DNA from: Amphritea sp.
GTDB taxonomy: Bacteria > Pseudomonadota > Gammaproteobacteria > Pseudomonadales > Balneatricaceae
DNA: 64,000 bases
NCBI RefSeq assembly: GCF_016744155.1
Contig: NZ_JADGEW010000005.1
Span: 62,001 to 126,000 of the forward strand
Direction: 5' to 3'
The notes under the pieces were generated by a model. The model was not told where the DNA came from and did no database searches. It saw only the letters and a program-made list of their open reading frames with translations. The translations under genes and the position numbers were made by a program. Below, piece after piece: positions 3 to 45,745 of this stretch; position 1 is the first letter of the stretch; the number at the start of each line of letters is the position of its first letter.

Positions 3-839
3 AAACCTGTGCTGGGCGTCCTTCCTTATTTACATGGATTTCACCTTGAAGCTGAAGATGCTGTTGCATTCCAGCAACCTGAGTATTCAGAACAAGCACT
101 GCATGTGGTTGTCCCGGTGCTCCCTCATATTAGCAACCATACCGATTTTGATCCTTTACGTTTGCATCCATCCATTAAGCTAACCTACGTTGGGCCTGAG
201 CAGCTAATACCTGCGGCTGACCTTATCATTTTGCCAGGTTCAAAATCGGTGCGAAGTGATTTGGAATGGCTACGAAAGCAAGGTTGGGATACTCAAATCA
301 ATAAGCACCTTCGTTATGGTGGGAAAGTGTTAGGCGTATGTGGCGGCTTCCAAATGCTGGGTCATTCAATTGACGACCCCCATGGGATTGAAGGGGTGGC
401 GGGTTGCTCCGAAGGGTTAGCCTTACTAACAATGGATACTCGTCTTTATCCAGAAAAAAAGTTATCCAATCAAATTGGTACTTTTAGTCTTGATGGTAAA
501 GAGGCTATCGCGGTTGCTGGTTATGAAATCCATTGTGGTATTTCAACCGGTGATGCGCTGTCAGCACCAATGATACGTCTTTCAGATGATACAGCTGAAG
601 GTGCAATTTCGAGCGATGGTCAAATTGCTGGAACTTATTTACATGGTTTATTTGAATCATCAGGTGTTGTGAATCAAGTATTGCAATGGGCAGGACTCAA
701 AACGGCCGCTGATTTTGACTATCGCGACCGTAAAGATAGAGATCTTGATAGGTTAGCTGACTCGATTGAAACGCATTTGGATATGAAGGCTATTTACCGT
801 TTATTAGATGCTCCTATTGTTCGGGAGAGTGCTGAATGA
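3..839 (+). CDS. cobQ: Cobyric acid synthase CobQ, C-terminal part (cut by window start)
   Basis: CobQ amidates four carboxylates of adenosylcobyrinic acid a,c-diamide using glutamine and ATP, in cytosolic cobalamin assembly. Only the C-terminal part is visible; the frame is open to the first base, so the true start lies upstream. The glutamine amidotransferase half is clear: an LPGSK oxyanion segment, the nucleophile cysteine in GVCGGFQMLG (codon near 339), and the histidine in GTYLHGLFES. The N-terminal dethiobiotin-synthetase-like ATPase domain is mostly outside the window. The stop overlaps the cobU start in an ATGA junction, which indicates translational coupling in a cob operon. Family identity is firm; CobB (cobyrinate diamide synthase) has the same fold but the order cobQ-cobU-cobT-cobC-cobS favours CobQ. 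Confidence 0.93.
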   Translation, partial: KPVLGVLPYLHGFHLEAEDAVAFQQPEYSEQALHVVVPVLPHISNHTDFDPLRLHPSIKLTYVGPEQLIPAADLIILPGSKSVRSDLEWLRKQGWDTQINKHLRYGGKVLGVCGGFQMLGHSIDDPHGIEGVAGCSEGLALLTMDTRLYPEKKLSNQIGTFSLDGKEAIAVAGYEIHCGISTGDALSAPMIRLSDDTAEGAISSDGQIAGTYLHGLFESSGVVNQVLQWAGLKTAADFDYRDRKDRDLDRLADSIETHLDMKAIYRLLDAPIVRESAE

Positions 840-1357
840 TCTATTTTATTATTGGCGGCGCGCGCTCAGGAAAAAGCAGTTATGCAGAAAGCCTAGCTAA
901 AAATAATGACTCAGATGTTATCTATATAGCAACGGCACAAGCCTATGATGATGAGATGCAAGGGCGCATAGAGCAGCATAAACAGCAGCGCCCGGGTGAG
1001 TGGCCAACTTTTGAAGAACCATTAGAAATAAGCAATGTTATTAATAATGAAAGTTATTCACATAACTGTTTGTTAATAGACTGTTTAACGCTCTGGCTTA
1101 CAAATTTACTCTGTGCAGATAAAAACATAGCAGGCTATAAACAGCAGTTGCTTGATGCTTTAAATAACGCAAAAGGCGACATTATATTGGTGAGTAATGA
1201 AACCGGTATGGGAGTCGTGCCTATGGGTGAACTAACACGTCGTTATTGTGATGAGGCTGGTTGGTTGCACCAGGAAGTTGCGGCGTTGGCAGACCAGGTT
1301 GTTTTGATGGTAGCGGGAATTCCCGTCGTTATTAAACCTATGTCTAGTGATCATTAA
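836..1357 (+). CDS. cobU: Adenosylcobinamide kinase / guanylyltransferase
   Basis: This bifunctional cytosolic enzyme phosphorylates adenosylcobinamide and then transfers GMP to it, giving adenosylcobinamide-GDP, the substrate of CobS encoded downstream. The 173-residue length is typical. The P-loop GGARSGKSS lies at residues 7-15, directly after the first beta strand, as in CobU/CobP. The segment VSNETGMGVVP in the middle of the protein is the characteristic second conserved block. The ATG overlaps the cobQ stop by four bases (ATGA), so the start is well fixed. It may also be called cobP in Pseudomonas nomenclature. Confidence 0.96.
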   Translation: MIYFIIGGARSGKSSYAESLAKNNDSDVIYIATAQAYDDEMQGRIEQHKQQRPGEWPTFEEPLEISNVINNESYSHNCLLIDCLTLWLTNLLCADKNIAGYKQQLLDALNNAKGDIILVSNETGMGVVPMGELTRRYCDEAGWLHQEVAALADQVVLMVAGIPVVIKPMSSDH

Positions 1358-1398
1358 TACAAATTATAATGCATTCAATCGAAAGGCAGGCGCAGTAC

Positions 1399-2523
1399 AT
1401 GAATAGTCATATCCCATCGATCGCGTGGTTAAGCTCCTCTATTAAACCGTTAGATATGATGACGATGTATGCGGCTGTTGAGCATCAAAAGCAGCTCACT
1501 AAACCGGCGGGCTCTTTGGGTAAATTAGAAAACTTGGCCATCCGTCTGGCTGCTATGCAGGGCGTTTTATTTCCTACAGCTGACAATATTTCCATCGCTA
1601 TCTTTGCAGCCGATCACGGTATTGCAGAAGAGGGGGTGTCGGTATTTCCCCAATCGGTCACTGCTGAAATGGTTAAAAACTTTTCCCATGGCGGTGCAGC
1701 CATTTGTGTAGCAGCACGTTTCTTGAATGCTCCTATGACTGTTTATAACTTGGGTACAGTGTCGCCCACCGAAGGGCTGGCTAATGTTGTTAATTGTGCC
1801 ATTGCTCCGCAGACTGCCAGTTTTCTACGTCGGCCTGCTATGACTGAAACCCAGCTTGCGCAAGCGGTAAATGTTGGACGCCAGGCAGTATTAACGTCGA
1901 TAGAAAAACAGCTAGCACAAGGGCAGAAACTTGATCTATTTCTTGCCGGAGAAATGGGGATAGCCAATACCACATCGGCTACTGCAATCGCCTCGGTGCT
2001 GCTGAATACCTCCCCTGAAAAGCTAGCAGGGCCTGGTACAGGATTAGATGCTAAAGGTGTTTCGCGTAAAGCAATGATTATTGCTCAGGCCCTAAAACTA
2101 CATGAAAAGACTTTGGATAATAGCGAAAAAGATCCGTTAATTGCGTTACAGCTATTAGGTGGTTTTGAAATTGCGGCCCTTACCGGCGCTTATCTTGCTT
2201 GTGCGCAAGAAGGCGTGCCTGCTGTTGTTGATGGTTTTATCTGTACAGTAGCGGCCTTGGTAGCGTGTCGTATTAATCCTAGGGTGTCTGACTGGTTCAT
2301 CTTAGCTCACAGTTCAGCTGAACCCGGTTATCTGTTATTACTGGACGGCTTTGCTAAGCAGCAGCCGCTATTGAATCTAGAGTTTCGTTTAGGGGAAGGA
2401 AGTGGTGCTGCTATTGCTGTACCGCTTATCAGACTCGCCTGTTCTTTACATCATGAAATGTCTACATTTGCAGAAGCGGCGGTGTCTTCTTCAACAGTCA
2501 CGACTGACGAAGTAGCAAAGTAA
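1399..2523 (+). CDS. cobT: Nicotinate-nucleotide-dimethylbenzimidazole phosphoribosyltransferase
   Basis: CobT transfers phosphoribose from nicotinate mononucleotide to dimethylbenzimidazole, making alpha-ribazole phosphate for the lower ligand of cobalamin. The KPAGSLGKLE block near the N-terminus, the AADHG segment, and the C-terminal GEGSGAAIAVPL with the catalytic glutamate are all present. An in-frame ATG exists at 1369, but it has no ribosome binding site; the ATG at 1399 follows AAAGGCAGG and yields 374 residues with an N-terminus like other CobT proteins, so I chose it. Two bases separate its stop from cobC. Confidence 0.95.
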   Translation: MNSHIPSIAWLSSSIKPLDMMTMYAAVEHQKQLTKPAGSLGKLENLAIRLAAMQGVLFPTADNISIAIFAADHGIAEEGVSVFPQSVTAEMVKNFSHGGAAICVAARFLNAPMTVYNLGTVSPTEGLANVVNCAIAPQTASFLRRPAMTETQLAQAVNVGRQAVLTSIEKQLAQGQKLDLFLAGEMGIANTTSATAIASVLLNTSPEKLAGPGTGLDAKGVSRKAMIIAQALKLHEKTLDNSEKDPLIALQLLGGFEIAALTGAYLACAQEGVPAVVDGFICTVAALVACRINPRVSDWFILAHSSAEPGYLLLLDGFAKQQPLLNLEFRLGEGSGAAIAVPLIRLACSLHHEMSTFAEAAVSSSTVTTDEVAK

Positions 2524-2524
2524 G

Positions 2525-3097
2525 ATGAAGCAGCCACTTACTATCGATGCATTGAGACACGGAGAGACGGTAAAAGGTCAGTGTTATCTGGGGCGTACTG
2601 ATGCCGAGTTAACCGACCATGGATGGTGGCAAATGGAAAGCGCTATGCAAGCTATCAATATTGCGGATTACGATGTTGTAATTACTTCTCCGTTAGTCCG
2701 TTGTAAGGCGTTTGCTGAACGTTGGGTTGGATCACAAGAGTCAGATACAGTATTCCTATGCACGGATTCATTAATTCAAGAATACGATTTTGGTCTGTGG
2801 GATGGCATGACCGCCGCAGGCATTATGTTGCAATGGGCAGATGAATTAGCAGGCTTTTGGCACTCGCCAGAACAGTTTCCTCCCCCCGAAGGGGAGCTGA
2901 TAACTGAGTTCTTTCAACGCTTACAGATCTTTCTAAATACTAGGCTGGCCAGTGAAAATAACAAAGTGCTTTTGATTACACATGGAGGTGTAATTAAAGC
3001 GCTGACTTGTTTGAATAAGAATAGGCCTGCATCTGACATGTTTGGTGTTGAGGCTAAACATGGTGAACTACACCGGCTTATGTGGCAGCGGGCATGA
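2525..3097 (+). CDS. cobC: Alpha-ribazole phosphatase, histidine phosphatase family
   Basis: CobC removes the 5' phosphate of alpha-ribazole phosphate (or of adenosylcobalamin phosphate) in nucleotide loop assembly. The 190-residue protein opens with the phosphohistidine motif LRHGET (RHG at 11-13), followed by GRTDAELTDHG. The second catalytic histidine is in LITHGGVIK near residue 155. It lies one base after cobT and its stop TGA overlaps the cobS start, so it is embedded in the cob operon, which is the main argument for CobC rather than a generic phosphoglycerate mutase-like protein. Confidence 0.9.
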   Translation: MKQPLTIDALRHGETVKGQCYLGRTDAELTDHGWWQMESAMQAINIADYDVVITSPLVRCKAFAERWVGSQESDTVFLCTDSLIQEYDFGLWDGMTAAGIMLQWADELAGFWHSPEQFPPPEGELITEFFQRLQIFLNTRLASENNKVLLITHGGVIKALTCLNKNRPASDMFGVEAKHGELHRLMWQRA

Positions 3098-3846
3098 AGT
3101 TTTTTATCTCTGAACAGTGGCAAGCTCTGTGTGTGGCCATGCAGTTTTTGACGCAGCTGCCTATTCGCTTACGAATGTATCCAGATTCACGTATACAGGC
3201 GCACTCACTACTCTACTACCCGCTTGCGGGTGCTGTGATTGGTGGTGTTTTGTGTGCACTTAGCTGGCTGCTTAACGATCAATCACTGTATCTGCAGGCA
3301 TCCTTAGTATTGATTGGCTGGGTGGTGCTTACGGGAGGCTTACACCTCGATGGTTTAGCTGACAGTGCTGATGGGTGGATGGGCGGATTAGGCGATCCTG
3401 AACGCACGCTGCGTATCATGAAAGATCCTTGCGCTGGGGCGATAGGTGTTCTGGCATTGGTGTTATTGCTCTTGTTGAAGTGGTCAGCGCTCATAACGTT
3501 ACTGGAAACAGTTACTTTATTGCCGCTATTGATCGCTCCACTATTTGCCCGGCTGGGAGCTATTGTTTTGTTGGCTGGTACGCCTTATGTGAGACCGCAA
3601 GGAATCGCCTCCTCTATGATAGTTAATATGCCGCGACAGCGTATTTATTGTATGGGTCTGGTAGGAATAGTAGTGCTGGGGTGGATAAGTCTTCTATGGT
3701 TATTGGCAGTGGTCATTGTATTTTGGATCGCGCGTAAAATGATGTTATCGCGCTTAAAAGGTACTACCGGTGATACGGCAGGAGCCTTAATTGAATTACT
3801 GGAAGTGACCTTACTTACCGTTGCTGGCAGTACTTTTTCAACTTGA
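3094..3846 (+). CDS. cobS: Adenosylcobinamide-GDP ribazoletransferase (cobalamin synthase)
   Basis: CobS is an inner-membrane enzyme that joins adenosylcobinamide-GDP to alpha-ribazole (phosphate), completing the nucleotide loop. Recognisable blocks are FLTQLPI near the N-terminus, the acidic motif GLHLDGLADSADGW with the Mg-binding aspartates, and TTGDTAGA near the C-terminus; several hydrophobic helices occupy the rest. The ATG at 3094 overlaps the cobC stop (ATGA), giving 250 residues; a GTG at 3082 would add four. It is the last gene of the cob run: the next gene is convergent. Confidence 0.95.
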   Translation: MKFFISEQWQALCVAMQFLTQLPIRLRMYPDSRIQAHSLLYYPLAGAVIGGVLCALSWLLNDQSLYLQASLVLIGWVVLTGGLHLDGLADSADGWMGGLGDPERTLRIMKDPCAGAIGVLALVLLLLLKWSALITLLETVTLLPLLIAPLFARLGAIVLLAGTPYVRPQGIASSMIVNMPRQRIYCMGLVGIVVLGWISLLWLLAVVIVFWIARKMMLSRLKGTTGDTAGALIELLEVTLLTVAGSTFST

Positions 3847-6275: not shown

Positions 6276-7124
6276 TCAGAGCTCTAGGCTGACGGCCTCT
6301 TGCTGATTAGATGTGATCGGGTTAAAGCTGGTTTGTGCCCGGTGCAGGCAGCTTTGGTTTGCGGTCTCTCTTAGTGCCTCAATACTTGTTATCTGGTGTG
6401 TACAGGGTGATCCATCCAGATAGCTAAAGGTAGCTTTTTTCTCGGTCACCTGGATGTGGCTGAAACTGACGGTCTTCGCATCATCCCGGTGCATGCAAAC
6501 CGACAGTTCTCCCTGAATTGTCAGGCCATTTTCTTCGCGCTGATATTTATCCGACAGGCTATGCTTGCCTGTCTGATTAAAAGGCTGATGGCTTTGATGG
6601 AAAGCCAGCAATTGATCGGCATCCGGTGCTTGGCCTAATAAGGCGAAGTTGTTATGACGGGCTGTATATACAGAATCAAAGGCAACCGATGAGGATGTCA
6701 TCGGACTTTTAATGCTGAGTGTTTCCAGTGTCTTACCATCCCATTGAAAGCCCTGGGGCTGTTGATCTAATGCCAATGTTAGCAGGGTGAATGGGGCGTA
6801 CTGGTGTAGATTTATTTTACTCAGTTCAGTAGCGATTTCAGGTTGTGTTGATAAGTCCGATAGAGACTTGAGTAACTGCCCACGGCTTTTTAATACGCCT
6901 ACTGGCATCTTTCCTTGATAGAAGTTCAGCAGACACAAGCTCAGGCCATGGTCATTCACCGAGATCCAGCTGCCACCACCATCGGGGTCGACCGGCATTA
7001 ATACTTTGCTGTCTTGTTTCTTAAACGCTTGGGGTGCCAGCGCTCGGCTGCGACTGCGTTGTTCATCACGATTGAAGAATAACTGATAACCATCGGTATC
7101 CACTAACCAGCTTACTGTGCACAT
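6276..7124 (-). CDS. NRDE family protein (TANGO2-like)
   Basis: The 282-residue protein starts MCTVSW and carries the diagnostic NRDE at residues 18-21 followed by RSRSRA, as in the NRDE/TANGO2 family. An N-terminal-nucleophile-like role for the second-residue cysteine has been suggested for this family from its fold, and eukaryotic TANGO2 homologues have been linked to haem trafficking; the bacterial function is unsettled. It is the last gene of the minus-strand cluster, 18 bases after the DinB-fold gene. That linkage to ATP-grasp genes is the most informative clue about its role here. Confidence 0.85.
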   Translation of the reverse strand: MCTVSWLVDTDGYQLFFNRDEQRSRSRALAPQAFKKQDSKVLMPVDPDGGGSWISVNDHGLSLCLLNFYQGKMPVGVLKSRGQLLKSLSDLSTQPEIATELSKINLHQYAPFTLLTLALDQQPQGFQWDGKTLETLSIKSPMTSSSVAFDSVYTARHNNFALLGQAPDADQLLAFHQSHQPFNQTGKHSLSDKYQREENGLTIQGELSVCMHRDDAKTVSFSHIQVTEKKATFSYLDGSPCTHQITSIEALRETANQSCLHRAQTSFNPITSNQQEAVSLEL

Positions 7125-7142
7125 ACGGCAATTCCTTAGCGC

Positions 7143-7703
7143 TTATGCCGGCTGTGCGGACTGTTCAGATTGTGCAGAAGTTTCCGCTTCTGCAGCTAAA
7201 GAACGCAGATAAGTGGCGGTAGCGGGAGCTGTGCCGTACTGAGCATTAACCTGGCAGCCTAACACTTTTGCGATAGTGGCCATGAGCGCCAGATGATGGA
7301 TCGCATGGGTTGACGCAAATGCCAGTTCTCGGCCAAAAGACGATGTGAACTGAACGCTGAACTCTTCATCAATATCCACTTCAGTGAGTATTGAAACGCT
7401 ACGCTGAAGGTCAGCAGCATCTAAGCTGGTCAGCCACTGACGCACACTTTGTAATGCATCAATGCCTTCCTGCTGTATGGTTTCCAGTGGGATACCACGC
7501 TGGCGAACGTCGTAGTTAATTACCGGCGCATCGCTGTTCTGAATCAGGGCCTGAAACATATCGAGGATATGGCGCAGGTGTTGACCAATGCTGCTGTCAA
7601 ACAGCGGCTTGTGGCTTGCCTGATAGGTTGCAGCATCAAGGCCGCTGATAAAATCCTGCAGTTGATCCAGGATATTCACAGTACTGCTGATCATTTTATC
7701 CAT
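7143..7703 (-). CDS. DinB-fold family protein, putative metal-dependent enzyme
   Basis: The 186-residue protein has the four-helix DinB/YfiT pattern: QHLRHILDMFQ places histidines at 42 and 45, and STHAIHHLALM places histidines at 133, 136 and 137. Together these could form the usual three-histidine metal site. Members of this superfamily include thiol-dependent transferases such as bacillithiol transferases and the mycothiol-dependent maleylpyruvate isomerase, but others have no known activity. It starts one base beyond the stop of the MFS-like gene and precedes the NRDE gene, so it belongs to the same transcript. A specific substrate cannot be assigned. Confidence 0.82.
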   Translation of the reverse strand: MDKMISSTVNILDQLQDFISGLDAATYQASHKPLFDSSIGQHLRHILDMFQALIQNSDAPVINYDVRQRGIPLETIQQEGIDALQSVRQWLTSLDAADLQRSVSILTEVDIDEEFSVQFTSSFGRELAFASTHAIHHLALMATIAKVLGCQVNAQYGTAPATATYLRSLAAEAETSAQSEQSAQPA

Positions 7704-7704
7704 G

Positions 7705-9063
7705 CTAATTTTCCGTTTTACTAAACTGTAAATTCTGGGTGGGTGCTGTTACTGAGCTAATGGTGTTTTCTTCAGTGGTTGATCTGTTTTCCGCTTCTTT
7801 AGGTACGCTGTAGACCAAGTATATCAATGCGATAGGCGTGAGTATCAGGTAGGTTGATGCCAGCGCTGATTGAACATCTTCAAAGTAAGATGCTAGCAGG
7901 GCGATCAGACTGAAAAAAATCACGATACCGGTTTGTGACAGATAGCTTTTCGCCAGTAGGTAATTGAGCGGGCGAAGCTGGCGGGCGTTGTCGAAGAAAC
8001 GTTTGTTAAAGCTTAACCGGAAGAAGGTGGTCAGGAAGGCGATGACCAAAATCGCTGGGTAGACCCAGTAGTCAGGCAGGCTGGTATCCAGCATGCTGCG
8101 CAGCAACCAGGAAACAGCATAGAAGACTACGGCAACGACATAGACTTTGTTACGGTCTATCGCATCAATTCGGTTCTTCAGTAGGAAGAATATAACCGAC
8201 AAGAGCACCGTCAGTAGCACGACGATAAGGCCTAGCTGTTTAATGTTTTCCTGGGTGATGTAATACAGGGAGATGATCCAGAAATAGCTTTCCAGAAACA
8301 GAAATACGCCGTCGAGATAAAAGACGACCGCTGAGTTATGTTTATCTTTGAATTTAAAAATAGACTGACAGTTGCCTGTGCTCTGATAATTACGGTCTGT
8401 TGTATCAGATGCCGTTAAGCCATTTTTGCTGCTGAGTGACCTGCTTAATGTCCCGTTGATTGTCGCGAACGTTGCATTATTACTTGCACGTAAAAACCAC
8501 AGCATAGCGCTGACAGAAATAGCGGTGCTGAGTATCAGTAATTGAAATTCGTACCCGGCTCCGAGCAAGAATGCGCTAATAAGAATGCCCAGCTTCAACA
8601 ATATTACGACGACGATCTGGAAGTTACCAAAGTGGCGGCCGGTTTGATGGTTTGCTGATGGCTGCTCGTGGGTTTCAGTGTCGGATGGCTGAACAGGGGC
8701 GGAGGTCATGGTGCTGAATAACACCCGCTGGGTGGTCCAGTAGAAACAGTTGTATGCGCCATTCAGCAGCGCCGCTACAACCAGTAACAGGATGCCGTCC
8801 GTATACAGCAGTGCTGTGACCAGGCTGATCTCTGTCATAAAAGAGGTTGCGGTAATTAGGCGCCAGTTCGCTTTTTGATAGACCTTTTCCCAGAGTTTGA
8901 GTGAAAAAATAAAACTCAGGCCGGTTAATGCGATAAACAGCGCGATAGCCTCTATCGAGTTACCCCGCTGTAACAGTAGCACCGGTATAAAGAACGGCAA
9001 CAGGCCGATTAGCAGGGAGTGTGCCCCGGCAAACTGGAAGAAGTTACGCGCGATACTGTTCAT
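7705..9063 (-). CDS. MFS-like multi-spanning membrane transporter
   Basis: The 452-residue protein has about ten to twelve hydrophobic segments, beginning with SLLIGLLPFFIPVLLLQRG and a second around FIALTGLSFIFSL, spaced as in major facilitator transporters. A long polar loop around residues 130-145 and another near residues 200-235 divide the molecule, as the central loop does in MFS proteins. No substrate motif is recognisable. Its ATG overlaps the end of the upstream ATP-grasp gene, and the DinB gene follows immediately, which suggests it exports or imports the product of that pathway. Polytopic membrane location is certain; the family assignment is moderate. Confidence 0.72.
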   Translation of the reverse strand: MNSIARNFFQFAGAHSLLIGLLPFFIPVLLLQRGNSIEAIALFIALTGLSFIFSLKLWEKVYQKANWRLITATSFMTEISLVTALLYTDGILLLVVAALLNGAYNCFYWTTQRVLFSTMTSAPVQPSDTETHEQPSANHQTGRHFGNFQIVVVILLKLGILISAFLLGAGYEFQLLILSTAISVSAMLWFLRASNNATFATINGTLSRSLSSKNGLTASDTTDRNYQSTGNCQSIFKFKDKHNSAVVFYLDGVFLFLESYFWIISLYYITQENIKQLGLIVVLLTVLLSVIFFLLKNRIDAIDRNKVYVVAVVFYAVSWLLRSMLDTSLPDYWVYPAILVIAFLTTFFRLSFNKRFFDNARQLRPLNYLLAKSYLSQTGIVIFFSLIALLASYFEDVQSALASTYLILTPIALIYLVYSVPKEAENRSTTEENTISSVTAPTQNLQFSKTEN

Positions 9064-9974
9064 CAGTAGGTATCTGCGTTACTGATGTCGAGTTGATCAA
9101 GCTTTTGAAAATAAGGTGCTAAGTCCTCTTTTTCACCAAAGCGTGGATAGTCATGCATCTTCAGATAAGGGCGGGAGTTAACCTCGAGAAAGATACACTT
9201 TTGATCTTTATATGAATGCTCTATCCCTTTTTCAAAAATGACGTCGATACCCAGAATGTTAGCGTCGAACATTTCCAGAACATCGAGAAATAGCTGCTTG
9301 TTGTCTTCAGGAATAGTACTTTTTTCCACTGTTCTGACAGTACCGCCAGGTGCCAGTGATATACGGTAGAACAGGGTGATTACATCACCCGCAGCGGGGA
9401 CAGAGTCCATGCTAAGGTTCTGCTTTTTCAGAAAGTTAATCGTCTGTTCATTCTTCTGAATCGGGTAGATAGTCGGATACAGCTTCATCGCTGTGCGTAC
9501 CGCATTCTCTTCATCAATCAGCGCGCTGATGCTTTGTGTGCCATCGCCGGTTACCGTTGGTGGGTAACGTTCGATGACAGACATCAACTCACCTTTAATG
9601 GCTACAACCCGATAGTTGCAGCCCTTCAAATACTGCTCTACTACCGTTGTCGGCCACCAGATCTTAGCCAGGAAGATCGCTTTCCACAGTTCGCGGTAAT
9701 TATTGATCGGAAAGTAACTGCCCCGGGAATAGCCGCTCACGTTAGGCTTAATTACCAGTGGAAAACCGTATTCCTTAGCAAAACTGTGGGCTTTGAATGG
9801 GTTAAAAAAAATCAGCCCTTTAGCGTGGGGAACATTACCCTGATCAAACACGGCCCGCGCTTGCTCTTTAGAGCGACAACTCTTTCTGACTTCAAGGTTG
9901 TTATAGCTGCTACAGCCATTCATATACTTCTGGCTGATCCAGCTGTAGACCGCTTTTTTAATTGCTTGCATCAA
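9063..9974 (-). CDS. ATP-grasp domain protein, cyanophycin synthetase/GshAB-like
   Basis: The 303-residue protein has the order of an ATP-grasp ligase: PLVIKPNVSGYSRGSYF (phosphate-binding lysine and glycine-rich loop, about residues 95-112), VVEQYLKGCNYRVV (adenine strand), GDGTQSISALIDEEN, then GIDVIFEKG and FLEVNSRPYLKMHDYP with the Mg-binding glutamate and asparagine. The GDGTQSI segment is shared with cyanophycin synthetase and the glutathione-forming GshAB C-terminal domain, so it probably makes a peptide-like amide bond. It has no substrate-binding N-terminal domain of known type. Eight bases separate it from the upstream ATP-grasp gene and its end overlaps the transporter start. Confidence 0.82.
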   Translation of the reverse strand: MMQAIKKAVYSWISQKYMNGCSSYNNLEVRKSCRSKEQARAVFDQGNVPHAKGLIFFNPFKAHSFAKEYGFPLVIKPNVSGYSRGSYFPINNYRELWKAIFLAKIWWPTTVVEQYLKGCNYRVVAIKGELMSVIERYPPTVTGDGTQSISALIDEENAVRTAMKLYPTIYPIQKNEQTINFLKKQNLSMDSVPAAGDVITLFYRISLAPGGTVRTVEKSTIPEDNKQLFLDVLEMFDANILGIDVIFEKGIEHSYKDQKCIFLEVNSRPYLKMHDYPRFGEKEDLAPYFQKLDQLDISNADTY

Positions 9975-9982
9975 ATGTGTCC

Positions 9983-10831
9983 TTAATCAGTACGGTTGGT
10001 GCGCCGGATAAAAGCGAGCTTTTTAAAAAATATAACCGGTTCTTTTTTAATACTTGGCAACGTTTTAGTGTTTTTAGCCAATAACCAAGTGCATTTCAGA
10101 GCGGTTTTGTACTTGTTACGAGTGCTGGTGTTTGAGGTCAATAATACCAATGGCATTGGCAGGAACAGGTTGATCTCAATCACTTTAAAATCACCGGCGA
10201 TCAGTTGTTCTACTGAATCAGCGCGTACGCCTACCCGAGATATTCTGAAGCGGCCTATCGCTTTGATATAACCCCAGAGCTGATCAAGTTGTTCCTGGCT
10301 CAGCGTCGGGGTGATATCCATATACTCGGTTTGTTGGTTGTAGATACCATTTATCGGGTAATCATCAGCGCTGTGATTGATTACTTGAGTCACCGATAGC
10401 ATGCTGTGACGATCAGCTGACAGGTCACAGGGAATGGCAAAAATTTCAAACTCAATCTTTCCTTTTGCCGCTTCCTGAATCAGATACTGCATCGGCTGTT
10501 TGGTATCACGCTGAGCGCGTATATTGGTTAACTCTTCCGCATTATCAGCTCGTAGTATGCCTTGCGAGTTTTGTCCCCATTCAGGCTTCACAAAAAGAGG
10601 ATAAGACTCAGCTGTAATGTTCAGGCTGTCTGTAGCCTCTGTAGCCTGCTTATCTATCCACTGAGATAAGCGCCACTTTTCTGGAATCAGGTCATTTATA
10701 TCCTGCTTGGAATAGAGCCCTTTCGCTTTATTGAAATAGTCAGCATTGAGCTGAAAGTAGCGCCAAGGCTTAGCTCCCAACCTGATGCAGGAAGCAATGT
10801 ATGAAATTACTAGTACTATTCGAATAATCAT
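9983..10831 (-). CDS. Second ATP-grasp-like protein, divergent
   Basis: This 282-residue protein has a hydrophobic N-terminus (about residues 1-16) and then a divergent ATP-grasp core: YPLFVKPEWGQNSQGI with the lysine and loop, YLIQEAAKGKIEFEIF as the adenine-contact strand, and FKVIEINLFLPMPL with the Mg-binding Glu-x-Asn. It is unlike its neighbour at 9063-9974 outside these motifs, so the pair is not a recent duplication. The substrate is unknown; D-Ala-D-Ala ligase-like and other carboxylate-amine ligases share the fold. It heads the tight five-gene run and lies 83 bases after the membrane protein gene. Confidence 0.72.
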   Translation of the reverse strand: MIIRIVLVISYIASCIRLGAKPWRYFQLNADYFNKAKGLYSKQDINDLIPEKWRLSQWIDKQATEATDSLNITAESYPLFVKPEWGQNSQGILRADNAEELTNIRAQRDTKQPMQYLIQEAAKGKIEFEIFAIPCDLSADRHSMLSVTQVINHSADDYPINGIYNQQTEYMDITPTLSQEQLDQLWGYIKAIGRFRISRVGVRADSVEQLIAGDFKVIEINLFLPMPLVLLTSNTSTRNKYKTALKCTWLLAKNTKTLPSIKKEPVIFFKKLAFIRRTNRTD

Positions 10832-10914
10832 AAAAGCCCGTTAGTTCTCAGCAAGTAATGTATGACCAGTGGACCGGTATTTAATTTAAAATGGCTACTT
10901 TTAAGTAACTCTGT

Positions 10915-11424
10915 TCAGCTGGCAGATTTCAGTGAGCGCCAGTGGGTAAAGTTAACCAGAGCCATTGTAATACCTAGAATTAGAATTGATACCGCTGCAA
11001 AGAATAGCGAGCCGTTATCACTCTGTCCGTTATGCAGTACGACTATTCCTAATGGTGTTGCCAGATGGAAAAAGACGGCCCCCAACATAACCGATGACGC
11101 CATAACACCACCAATGCTGTGAATAACTTCTCGATCAGGCGTTTTGCTAATCAGATTTAGCTTTTTAAGAATGAAGAAAAATACTGGCGACAACAGAATT
11201 AGAGAAACAATCAGTTCGGCAGAGCCAACAGCGTATGCGCCGTATTGAGTGAACCAGTTACCCAGTCCCGTAGAAATTGTATTGCTCATCCAACCGCCGA
11301 TAGTGGCGAAAATATGTTGGGTATCCGGATGGCCGGTGAACTTATAGGGCAATGAACTTAAGAACACTTTTGTGATCCAGAGAATGATAACCCAGCTGGC
11401 GATAGAGATGATTCGAGATTTCAT
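10915..11424 (-). CDS. Small integral membrane protein, DoxX-like
   Basis: The 169-residue protein has four predicted membrane helices: residues about 5-22, 55-85 (AVGSAELIVSLILLSPVFFF), 105-130 (SIGGVMASSVMLGAVFFHLA) and 138-158. The arrangement resembles DoxX-like or DUF417-type inner-membrane proteins, but I cannot assign one with certainty. It follows the YHS gene by 42 bases and precedes the ATP-grasp genes on the same strand, so it may be part of one seven-gene transcript. No catalytic residues are apparent. Confidence 0.6.
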   Translation of the reverse strand: MKSRIISIASWVIILWITKVFLSSLPYKFTGHPDTQHIFATIGGWMSNTISTGLGNWFTQYGAYAVGSAELIVSLILLSPVFFFILKKLNLISKTPDREVIHSIGGVMASSVMLGAVFFHLATPLGIVVLHNGQSDNGSLFFAAVSILILGITMALVNFTHWRSLKSAS

Positions 11425-11466
11425 GGCAAATCCTTAAAGATAATTTGTGAGTAACAGGTTGTCGGC

Positions 11467-11931
11467 TTATCGGATAACCGCAGGCCAGTTGTTGTCAGCT
11501 TGTTCAATCAGGTTGGGTTTGTCTTTCAGCCATTTGGCCTGAATGCTGGCGTCATAGTTTAGGTAAAGCTTGCCGTCTTCAATGGTCCACTGCTGCGGAT
11601 CACCAGAAGCGGTATCATTATTGGCAACGGCCCAGGCGCAATAACCGCCATACTGAGGTGCGTACTTTTCAGGAGTTGCCTTAAAGGCCGCCAGATTGTC
11701 AGCATTCTTGAACTGCCAACGAGCGCCCTGATATTCGGTTGTATATTTACTGCTGCCTTTGGTGGCTTTACTGTCAGTGAAATAGGCGACAGTGTCATAG
11801 CCTGAAACAGCGACATCACTAAAGAAGGATGTATATATTGGATCCTTCGCCTGAGCCTGGAAAGAAAACATCACCAGCAGGAGTGTAAGCAGTGAGCCAA
11901 ACGCGTTTTTTTGGTTAACGATGGTATTCAT
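11467..11931 (-). CDS. Exported YHS-domain protein
   Basis: The 154-residue protein has a cleavable signal peptide (hydrophobic residues 10-24, likely cut after AQA at residue 28). The mature part matches the YHS family: VAVSGYDTVAYFTD, WQFKNADNLAAFKATPEKYAPQYGGYCAWAV with a single conserved cysteine, then a tryptophan-rich tail. YHS proteins are usually associated with metals or oxidases, but the role of this exported form is not established. It is the first gene of the minus-strand cluster. Its periplasmic location contrasts with the cytosolic ATP-grasp enzymes downstream. Confidence 0.85.
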   Translation of the reverse strand: MNTIVNQKNAFGSLLTLLLVMFSFQAQAKDPIYTSFFSDVAVSGYDTVAYFTDSKATKGSSKYTTEYQGARWQFKNADNLAAFKATPEKYAPQYGGYCAWAVANNDTASGDPQQWTIEDGKLYLNYDASIQAKWLKDKPNLIEQADNNWPAVIR

Positions 11932-15503: not shown

Positions 15504-15573
15504 GAGCCACGAGCCACGAGCCACGAGCCACGAGCCACGAGCCACGAGCCACGAGCCACGAGCCACGAGCCAC
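15504..15573. repeat. Ten tandem copies of heptamer GAGCCAC
   Basis: The unit GAGCCAC is repeated ten times without interruption over 70 bases. It lies directly beside the 3' end of the hydrolase gene at 15577. Copy 2 of the surrounding element has only one unit, so the array expanded in this copy. Confidence 0.97.
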
Positions 15574-15576
15574 GAA

Positions 15577-16143: not shown

Positions 16144-16260
16144 ATCTATTACTCTTGGGTCAATGTCTGTTGGTATGGCTATTATCTATCGACTCTTGGT
16201 TTTATACTGGAGTCGTATTTGACATATTTCAGGCAATAACTGACAGCTTTTGTGAGCTCT

Positions 16261-17265
16261 ATGAAAAGTATTAATGTTGTAATTTTGCAGTATCCAGGGG
16301 CTATGAAATCGGCGGTAGAAGGGCTGCGGGAGCTATTTGATCTGGCCAGTCGTTTAAGCCAGGAGCAGCAGGTGGAGCTGTCTTTTAATATAAAGGTGTT
16401 AGAAAATTCCGAGTTAAGCGATTCCGAGTTAAGCGATTCCGAGTTAAGCGATTCTGAGTTAAGTGGCACTGATCTAGAATGTCGCGCTGATAGTCAGTTT
16501 GATCGTATTCCACAGGTGATTATTATACCTCCATGTATCACCGGTAGTTTCTACACCGATGAACAGCATCTGATTACCCCTTGGCTTAAAGTAATGCATG
16601 CATCAGGTTCTATCCTTTGTTCTGTTTGTGCCGGAGCCTTTATTCTGGCGCAGACAGGTCTGTTAAATCAGCGCCCGGCAACGACACACTGGATACTGGC
16701 TGAGCGTCTGGCTAATAACTTTCCTGAGGTGCTGGTGGATGAGAATAAAATACTGATTAATGATGGTGATCTGATTACCGCGGGTGGTCTGATGGCCTGG
16801 CTGGATATGGGCTTAGAACTGGTTGCACAGTTTGGCAGTCCTGCATTGATGAGGTTGTTAGGAAAGCGGTTAGTGGTTGATACGGCACCTCGTCAGCAAC
16901 GCTACTATCGCTGTTTTATTCCCCCATTTGATCATGGTGATAAAGCGATACTTAAGAGTCAGCACTATCTGCAAAGCTATAGTCATACTTCGGTTACGGT
17001 GAAACAGCTCGCAACTGATAGCTATTTAACTGAACGTACTTTTCTTCGTCGCTTTGTTCAGGCGACCGGATACAAGCCCAAGGAGTACATGCAGAATCTA
17101 CGGATTAGTAAAGCGTGTGAGGCTTTAGAGGGGTCATCGGATAGCATCGAGGTGATTTCGCTTAATGTAGGCTATGACGATGTCAGTGCTTTCAGAAAAG
17201 TGTTTATTAAGATTGTCGGTCTGACGCCACGGGAATTTCGGGGGCGATTTAGCTCAGTAAAATGA
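16261..17265 (+). CDS. GlxA-type transcriptional regulator, DJ-1/PfpI plus AraC domains
   Basis: The 334-residue protein has an N-terminal DJ-1/PfpI-like sensor (about residues 1-190) with the cysteine segment CSVCAGAFILAQTGLL and TTHWILAERL, and a C-terminal AraC helix-turn-helix pair with TERTFLRRFVQATGYKPKEYMQ and NVGYDDVSAFRKVF. GlxA regulators activate catabolic genes in response to small metabolites. Within the sensor at about residues 50-68 lies a tandem SELSD repeat encoded by a 15-base DNA repeat, absent from usual family members. A GTG at 16252 could add three residues. It is divergent from the hydrolase gene 117 bases away. Confidence 0.92.
   Translation: MKSINVVILQYPGAMKSAVEGLRELFDLASRLSQEQQVELSFNIKVLENSELSDSELSDSELSDSELSGTDLECRADSQFDRIPQVIIIPPCITGSFYTDEQHLITPWLKVMHASGSILCSVCAGAFILAQTGLLNQRPATTHWILAERLANNFPEVLVDENKILINDGDLITAGGLMAWLDMGLELVAQFGSPALMRLLGKRLVVDTAPRQQRYYRCFIPPFDHGDKAILKSQHYLQSYSHTSVTVKQLATDSYLTERTFLRRFVQATGYKPKEYMQNLRISKACEALEGSSDSIEVISLNVGYDDVSAFRKVFIKIVGLTPREFRGRFSSVK
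16410..16464 (+). repeat. 15-base tandem repeat inside the GlxA-type gene
   Basis: The unit GAGTTAAGCGATTCC occurs three and a half to four times with one substitution in the last copies. Because 15 is a multiple of three, copy changes keep the frame and add or remove SELSD units from a surface loop of the sensor domain. Confidence 0.93.
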
Positions 17266-45407: not shown

Positions 45408-45703
45408 TAGCAGCACATATGGCTGATTTTGAGCCATATAGTTATATTGTGTGATTGAGGATATCACTCTTTTTCATGTACTTATAAAGAGAGAGGATGA
45501 ACTGATAACTTACCCCAATACATTGATTTTACAAAAAGGGTAATTAAGAACCCAAAAGAGCATAAATTGCTTCAACCGATAGCTGATGTGATCGTTGATT
45601 GAAACGGTAATGTCTGTACTGATTGTTGTAGATTTAATAGCTAGAGACAAATCTTATACTTCAGAACAGTAAACTATTCAGGGCTCTTGCGCTTCGCTTT
45701 TTC

Positions 45704-45745
45704 GAGCAACGAGCAACGAGCAACGAGCAACGAGCAACGAGCAAG
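45704..45745. repeat. Five tandem copies of heptamer GAGCAAC plus a partial sixth
   Basis: The unit GAGCAAC is a one-base variant of the GAGCCAC unit at 15504. The array abuts copy B. In copy A only GAGCAAG is present. Confidence 0.95.

Follow-up and report, generated by a model that had tools for sequence, protein, structure and literature searches.

The question raised by this locus is what two unrelated ATP-grasp ligases, encoded side by side in a tight cluster with a transporter, might make together. The window analyzed here is a 64,000-nucleotide stretch of an Amphritea sp. genome (NCBI RefSeq assembly GCF_016744155.1, contig NZ_JADGEW010000005.1, positions 62,001 to 126,000 of the forward strand). 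The answer that we favor, at roughly even chances, is a two-ligase pathway in which ATP-grasp proteins B and A make a small amide metabolite and the transporter moves the product, with hypotaurine as the amine in a separate branch, the G325 clade. An earlier sequence-only reading had also proposed a small peptide or amide made by the ligases and moved by the transporter, and we infer the same reaction and transport.

Seven genes lie on the minus strand between positions 11931 and 6276 (Table 1), with coordinates and strand as first noted. The final five are tightly spaced, with intergenic gaps of at most 18 bases, and the ORFs of A and the transporter overlap by one base. Starting at the ATG at 9971 would shorten A to 302 amino acids. 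Family searches bear out the families originally assigned (two ATP-grasp proteins, an MFS-like transporter, DinB, NRDE, and YHS), and the YHS, NRDE/TANGO2, and DinB proteins score above curated cut-offs. The MFS match itself is weak; a predicted model (pLDDT 84.9) and its structural neighbors agree on an MFS fold. DoxX_2 is matched by 9 of 22 relatives of the 169-amino-acid membrane protein at E 0.05, and the window copy has no match. A promoter scan found 8 sites versus 10.7 in shuffled sequences, no excess, while terminator-like sites (16 versus 5.7 in shuffles) are mostly intragenic and hence were not used. Beyond the operon, positions 9-3846 of the window carry an apparent run of cobalamin biosynthesis genes, judged by eye.

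Table 1. Genes of the Amphritea sp. operon, in order of transcription, with window coordinates
Feature	Position	Strand	Basis
YHS-domain protein, exported, 154 aa	11467..11931	-	NF041384 4e-49; one invariant Cys in GGYC
DoxX-like membrane protein, 169 aa	10915..11424	-	DoxX_2 matches among family members
ATP-grasp protein B, 282 aa	9983..10831	-	ATP-grasp match and predicted model
ATP-grasp protein A, 303 aa, CphA/GshAB type	9063..9974	-	TIGR02068 5.7e-44; 7wac 2.7e-32
MFS transporter, 452 aa	7705..9063	-	Weak MFS match; predicted fold
DinB-fold protein with conserved histidines, 186 aa	7143..7703	-	Family search; lineage extra
NRDE/TANGO2 protein, 282 aa	6276..7124	-	Family search; lineage extra

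Neighbor maps of 61 loci with distinct A sequences define which of these genes travel together. B lies directly upstream of A on the same strand in 60 of the 61, and the remaining locus is a fusion. The B-A gap ranges from -68 to +45 bases, except in L119 and L121, which have shortened A frames. A DoxX-like gene is present in 44/61 loci (44/54 without the seven loci that are truncated less than 3 kb upstream), and a YHS gene lies within 6 kb in 33/61, with L010 and L013 carrying a more distant YHS subfamily. DinB is nearby at 13 loci and NRDE at eight, one of them (L120) with its copy 5 kb away. The conserved core is smaller than first proposed and consists of the two ATP-grasp genes and the transporter, with DoxX-like and YHS genes as frequent companions. 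The shared neighborhood that the first reading called for is seen, but DinB and NRDE are not part of its core. Because these two lie outside the core, the thiol-transferase clue is weak, and the proposed thiol or metal chemistry is conjecture. The sulfur hint comes instead from a cysteine dioxygenase and cysteine-sulfinate decarboxylase pair encoded in other genomes.

The fusion locus (L019/L062) comes from a single Gracilibacteria MAG. Under code 25, in which TGA means Gly, A and B there form one 598-amino-acid ORF, with 6 TGA codons and no other stops in the part that corresponds to A. Together, adjacency and natural fusion suggest that B and A work as a pair, probably in a complex that would hand over an intermediate. 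In L057 (7386-7922) and L058 (7377-7910), a retropepsin-like protease (TIGR02281; the L057 copy was scanned) is encoded immediately upstream of B.

The transporter slot after A is filled in 58/61 loci, 37 times by an MFS gene and 21 times by one for a VTT-domain protein. Neither type is found at L015 or L018, and the L101 contig stops at the gene. The VTT group forms one side of a branch in the A tree, with modest support (67/83; 96% of 200 bootstrap trees). A distinct arrangement is seen at L129 (5555-7720) and in the same slot of L131-L134: the interval that separates the DoxX-like gene from B encodes a fusion of a VTT domain with an FAD disulfide-reductase-like enzyme, identified on the L129 copy.

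VTT/DedA proteins include lipid flippases. The slot shared by MFS and VTT-domain proteins, together with a DoxX-like membrane protein as neighbor, could therefore mean that the ligases act on the head group of a membrane lipid, yielding an amino-acid- or taurine-type lipid that the MFS or VTT protein flips. We consider this unlikely: the VTT match, at 31 bits, falls below the curated Pfam cut-off of 33.9, the ligases show no general membrane anchor (hydropathy above 1.6 at the N-terminus in 24/65 B and 0/65 A sequences), and A's relatives CphA and GshAB work on soluble peptides. In the two-ligase pathway that we prefer, the product would cross the inner membrane through the MFS protein, with the VTT-domain protein perhaps taking over this role in one clade, and the DoxX-like and YHS proteins may join in at the membrane or in the periplasm.

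A forms a sharp ortholog group with a patchy distribution. Of 369 Gammaproteobacteria genomes, 11 (that of the window among them) carry it with E-values no worse than 1.4e-120; matches resume only at 2.7e-35 and mostly lie within long CphA-like frames. A search of genome contigs gave 17 loci with A, and the nearest named locus is an Amphritea MAG with an A 99% identical. Within the window's family 18/116 genomes carry A, and within its genus 5/17. Only 2/398 Pseudomonadota genomes do so at E 1e-60, again counting the window's own. The phylum of L019 has A in 2/192 genomes at E 1e-40, the second of which (G452, 3e-42) falls far outside on the tree, and the order of G244 has it in one of three genomes, G244 itself.

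A mobile-element origin and a defense role were examined and rejected. A plasmid origin is not indicated by the 120 plasmid records that match A, each at less than 60% identity; the 20 matches listed are CphA, GshAB, or unnamed. Five phage records match at 25-28% identity, and a viral-contig scan gave 25 pattern hits and no relative. A PADLOC scan of the seven proteins for anti-phage defense returned one match (Cas5, 0.0058), taken as chance. Four unannotated 'Listeria phage' records (OR846860, OR848114, OR848357, and OR846716) contain an ATP-grasp stretch ~28% identical to A, possibly a bacterial gshF-type sequence.

Both ligases retain intact-looking ATP-grasp sites. A shares its ATP-grasp type with the CphA G domain (7wac/7wae, TIGR02068): in an alignment of 35 rows, K36, K76, R122, R136, D244, E264, and N266, the equivalents of CphA K220, K261, R309, R323, D431, E450, and N452, are invariant (35/35), covering the ATP, metal, and carboxylate residues. 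CphA carries N and Mur-like M domains in the same protein, whereas A has neither and aligns only to positions 211-463 of the 862 in TIGR02068. Other positions differ. CphA His267 is replaced by Phe (26) or Tyr (9), the aspartate-recognition residue Asn394 by Ala (21) or Ser (14), and Arg458, which serves the same role, by K (26), R (3), A (3), E (2), or P (1). The position of the oxyanion residue Gly456 of TeCphA1 holds Y/F in 34/35 rows. A likewise matches the ATP-grasp part of N-acetylglutaminylglutamine (NAGGN) synthetase (TIGR03103, E 2.5e-18), but with 66 bits against a cut-off of 569. Cyanophycin and NAGGN synthesis are ruled out by these domain, score, and residue tests. By analogy with GshAB and CphA, the conserved residues suggest that A turns a carboxylate into an acyl phosphate and couples it to a small amine.

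B has a confident predicted ATP-grasp model and conserves the Lys, Glu, and Asn of the fold, while its second metal position holds D (18), N (16), or A (1). It scores far below all NCBIfam cut-offs for the LysX/ArgX, RimK, and D-Ala-D-Ala ligase families, reaching 21 bits against 245.65 for D-alanine-D-alanine ligase (TIGR01205) despite the shared fold. It further differs from these families in the ~50 residues ahead of its ATP-grasp core and in a KPEWGQN loop. Both B and A are short ATP-grasp proteins with little sequence ahead of the core, and B probably makes or activates the carboxylate partner for A.

The phosphate loop of GshF has Phe/Tyr at the position of CphA His267, as described in a passage of PMC9427784. 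A shares this feature and matches the GshAB/GshF module (3ln6) at 8.8e-24, but it lacks the fused glutamate-cysteine ligase of those enzymes and aligns only to positions 490-744 of 756. The GshF-like loop, the DinB proteins with full histidines at 13 loci, and the disulfide reductase fusion inside the operons of L129 and L131-L134 would suit an operon that makes a low-molecular-weight thiol. The two ligases would then carry out its synthesis and DinB would serve as the S-transferase, joined in some genomes by a disulfide reductase. This alternative is improbable in our estimation: 48/61 loci have no DinB nearby, and a cysteine dioxygenase would use up the thiol, not keep it. Nor would such a thiol replace glutathione there, as gshA was found in 38/40 genomes irrespective of the ligases (the exceptions are G047 and G369).

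B's closest structures as listed by VIA, where rows of near-equal Z are tied and other families are possible, include ArgX/LysX and RimK, enzymes that attach glutamate to the tails of proteins. It is nevertheless rather doubtful that proteins or ribosomal peptides are tagged by the ligases in a RimK- or graspetide-like manner with the transporter link secondary, since the gene maps have no conserved partner protein among the ORFs compared (those with a family label or of at least 90 amino acids) and the transporter slot is retained at 58 loci.

The proposed amide pathway gains a candidate substrate from the G325 order, which probably corresponds to the Thioglobaceae, comprising SUP05 and bivalve symbionts. 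Genomes of this clade are small; G1086 is a single contig of 1,022,154 bases, and the genome of the clam symbiont Ca. Vesicomyosocius okutanii is given as 1.02 Mb in PMC3202245. A is present in 22/83 genomes of the order, with internal stops in the G1100 copy, and the usual gene order is DoxX-like, PLP decarboxylase, CDO_I, B, A, and VTT. The decarboxylase is found in 19 of the 22 loci (in L102 and L113 as fragments only), the dioxygenase in 17, and a YHS gene nearby in nine. The L118 locus is truncated upstream, and L103 has both ligases but neither the decarboxylase nor the dioxygenase. Outside the order, the decarboxylase of L060 adjoins B, with no CDO. Three further genomes with A and no local pair (G047, G190, and G258) have an adjoining decarboxylase and CDO-like pair elsewhere in the genome. 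Genes resembling the enzyme pair of taurine biosynthesis, cysteine dioxygenase and cysteine-sulfinate decarboxylase, are present in the G325 clade and three other genomes.

Family scores, nearest solved structures, and key residues bear on the identities of both enzymes. Dioxygenases of L061 and L105 score 36.9 and 33.2 bits against a CDO family cut-off of 23, with His ligands in an HGH motif and a later His. The L105 protein is nearest to CDO1 (3.8e-9) and keeps YTRN and SLHxYS. No CDO_I match was found in G1102 at E 0.001. The best solved matches of the G258 decarboxylase (L167) are cysteine sulfinic acid decarboxylases (6zek, 1.1e-88; 2jis, 6.7e-85), followed by GAD65 at 3.8e-81. At three selectivity positions, CSAD has F/S/Y, a motif that Agnello is said to have reported in 2013, and GAD65 has S/N/F. 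By eye, L165 has F/S/Y, L166 and L167 have W/S/Y, and the operon copies differ from both reference enzymes with W/S/C. The unlinked decarboxylases of L166 and L167 have cupins beside them (L166 7924-8523 and L167 9959-10552). Pfam gives no match for these cupins at E 0.05, whereas tblastn aligns them with the operon dioxygenase; they possibly represent an unrecognized thiol dioxygenase family.

The two enzymes also co-occur with A beyond the operon itself. A class scan with the L167 decarboxylase at E <= 1e-80, a cut set after a wider decarboxylase scan and below which pair-bearing G047 falls, found 4/369 genomes, all four among the 11 with A (hypergeometric 4.3e-7; 1.5e-5 omitting the query's genome; phylogeny ignored). 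A second comparison covered 37 genomes chosen from the 51 then known with A, and 40 without A; the 37 include 8 of the 22 G325-order genomes, four of which were picked because their locus lacks a dioxygenase. CDO_I occurs in 16/37 versus 1/40 (Fisher 1.3e-5, phylogeny ignored), and 12 of the 16 belong to two genera, g287 and the genus of the Neptunomonas loci, g282. Wider decarboxylase homologues (E 1e-20) occur in 24/37 versus 12/40, again with phylogeny ignored. Some genomes of g282 and g287, whose A is of the Ala type described below, encode CDO_I, and mostly also a decarboxylase homologue, at separate places.

Three relatives without A (G1091, G109, and G1088) retain a decayed operon. G1091 has full-length matches to B and CDO, with the decarboxylase and DoxX-like genes in pieces, and G109 and G1088 keep pieces of the decarboxylase and DoxX-like genes only. 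In each of these genomes, the three flanking genes on the DoxX side have remained close to full length, at 85-93% identity. Most of the other flank survives in G1091 and only fragments of it in G1088; in G109 it was not seen. This joint decay fits a single shared function and is also compatible with plain deletion. Based on the gene families, active-site residues, and co-loss, the amine in the G325 clade is most likely hypotaurine, made by the dioxygenase and decarboxylase that the operon encodes.

The amine pocket of A indicates how far this assignment extends. Residue 208 of A, aligned to CphA Ser396, is K/R in 13/35 rows and A/P in 22/35, the window copy having Ala. The K/R rows are those of the G325 order plus L059 and L060, and 12 of the 13 have a decarboxylase gene, a fragment, or a distant pair, versus a distant decarboxylase-dioxygenase pair in 2/22 A/P rows. 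The split is partly one of shared descent. These different residues suggest that the amine may differ between branches. Since neither the CDO_I search (E 0.001) nor the decarboxylase search (E 1e-20) found a match in the window's Amphritea genome, and its pocket residue is Ala, the hypotaurine assignment is limited to one branch; the window's own ligase may use a different amine or one taken up from outside.

The operon is real, conserved, composed of known enzyme families, and undescribed in the literature searched. The original view that no described system has this gene set holds within that literature; subscription papers, including earlier surveys of ATP-grasp operons, were outside its scope, and a prior mention there is possible. 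In a clam host-symbiont genome paper (PMC7826175), the terms 'taurine', 'cysteine', and 'ATP-grasp' are absent from the main text. The significance of the locus lies in a tight orthologous gene set with intact-looking chemistry that occurs in culturable marine bacteria and apparently also in gene-poor obligate symbionts, and for part of which the dioxygenase-decarboxylase pair offers a concrete substrate guess. A passage of PMC6509183 reports that Ca. Thioglobus autotrophicus (SUP05) grows on thiotaurine and not on taurine, and one in PMC10548688 that hypotaurine binds sulfide in vent animals. A bacterial hypotaurine conjugate would therefore bear on sulfide handling by host and symbiont. A more far-reaching proposal, which we regard as a long shot, would make the operon a new pathway for a sulfur metabolite in marine bacteria that live with animals: the paired ligases would assemble a hypotaurine-capped peptide (in the window's branch, one with another small amine) that would carry reactive sulfur over the membrane. 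Clam symbionts would have retained the operon in genomes of ~1.02 Mb, and there such a product would be a currency between the symbiont and its sulfide-handling, taurine-rich host.

The window also contains several short tandem repeats outside the operon. An in-frame 15-base repeat of 3.9 copies at 16406-16463 encodes repeated Ser-Asp-Ser-Glu-Leu within an ORF (16252-17265) that resembles an AraC-type regulator by eye. Two perfect 7-base repeats lie at 15504-15575 (GAGCCAC, 10.3 copies) and 45703-45744 (CGAGCAA, 6 copies).
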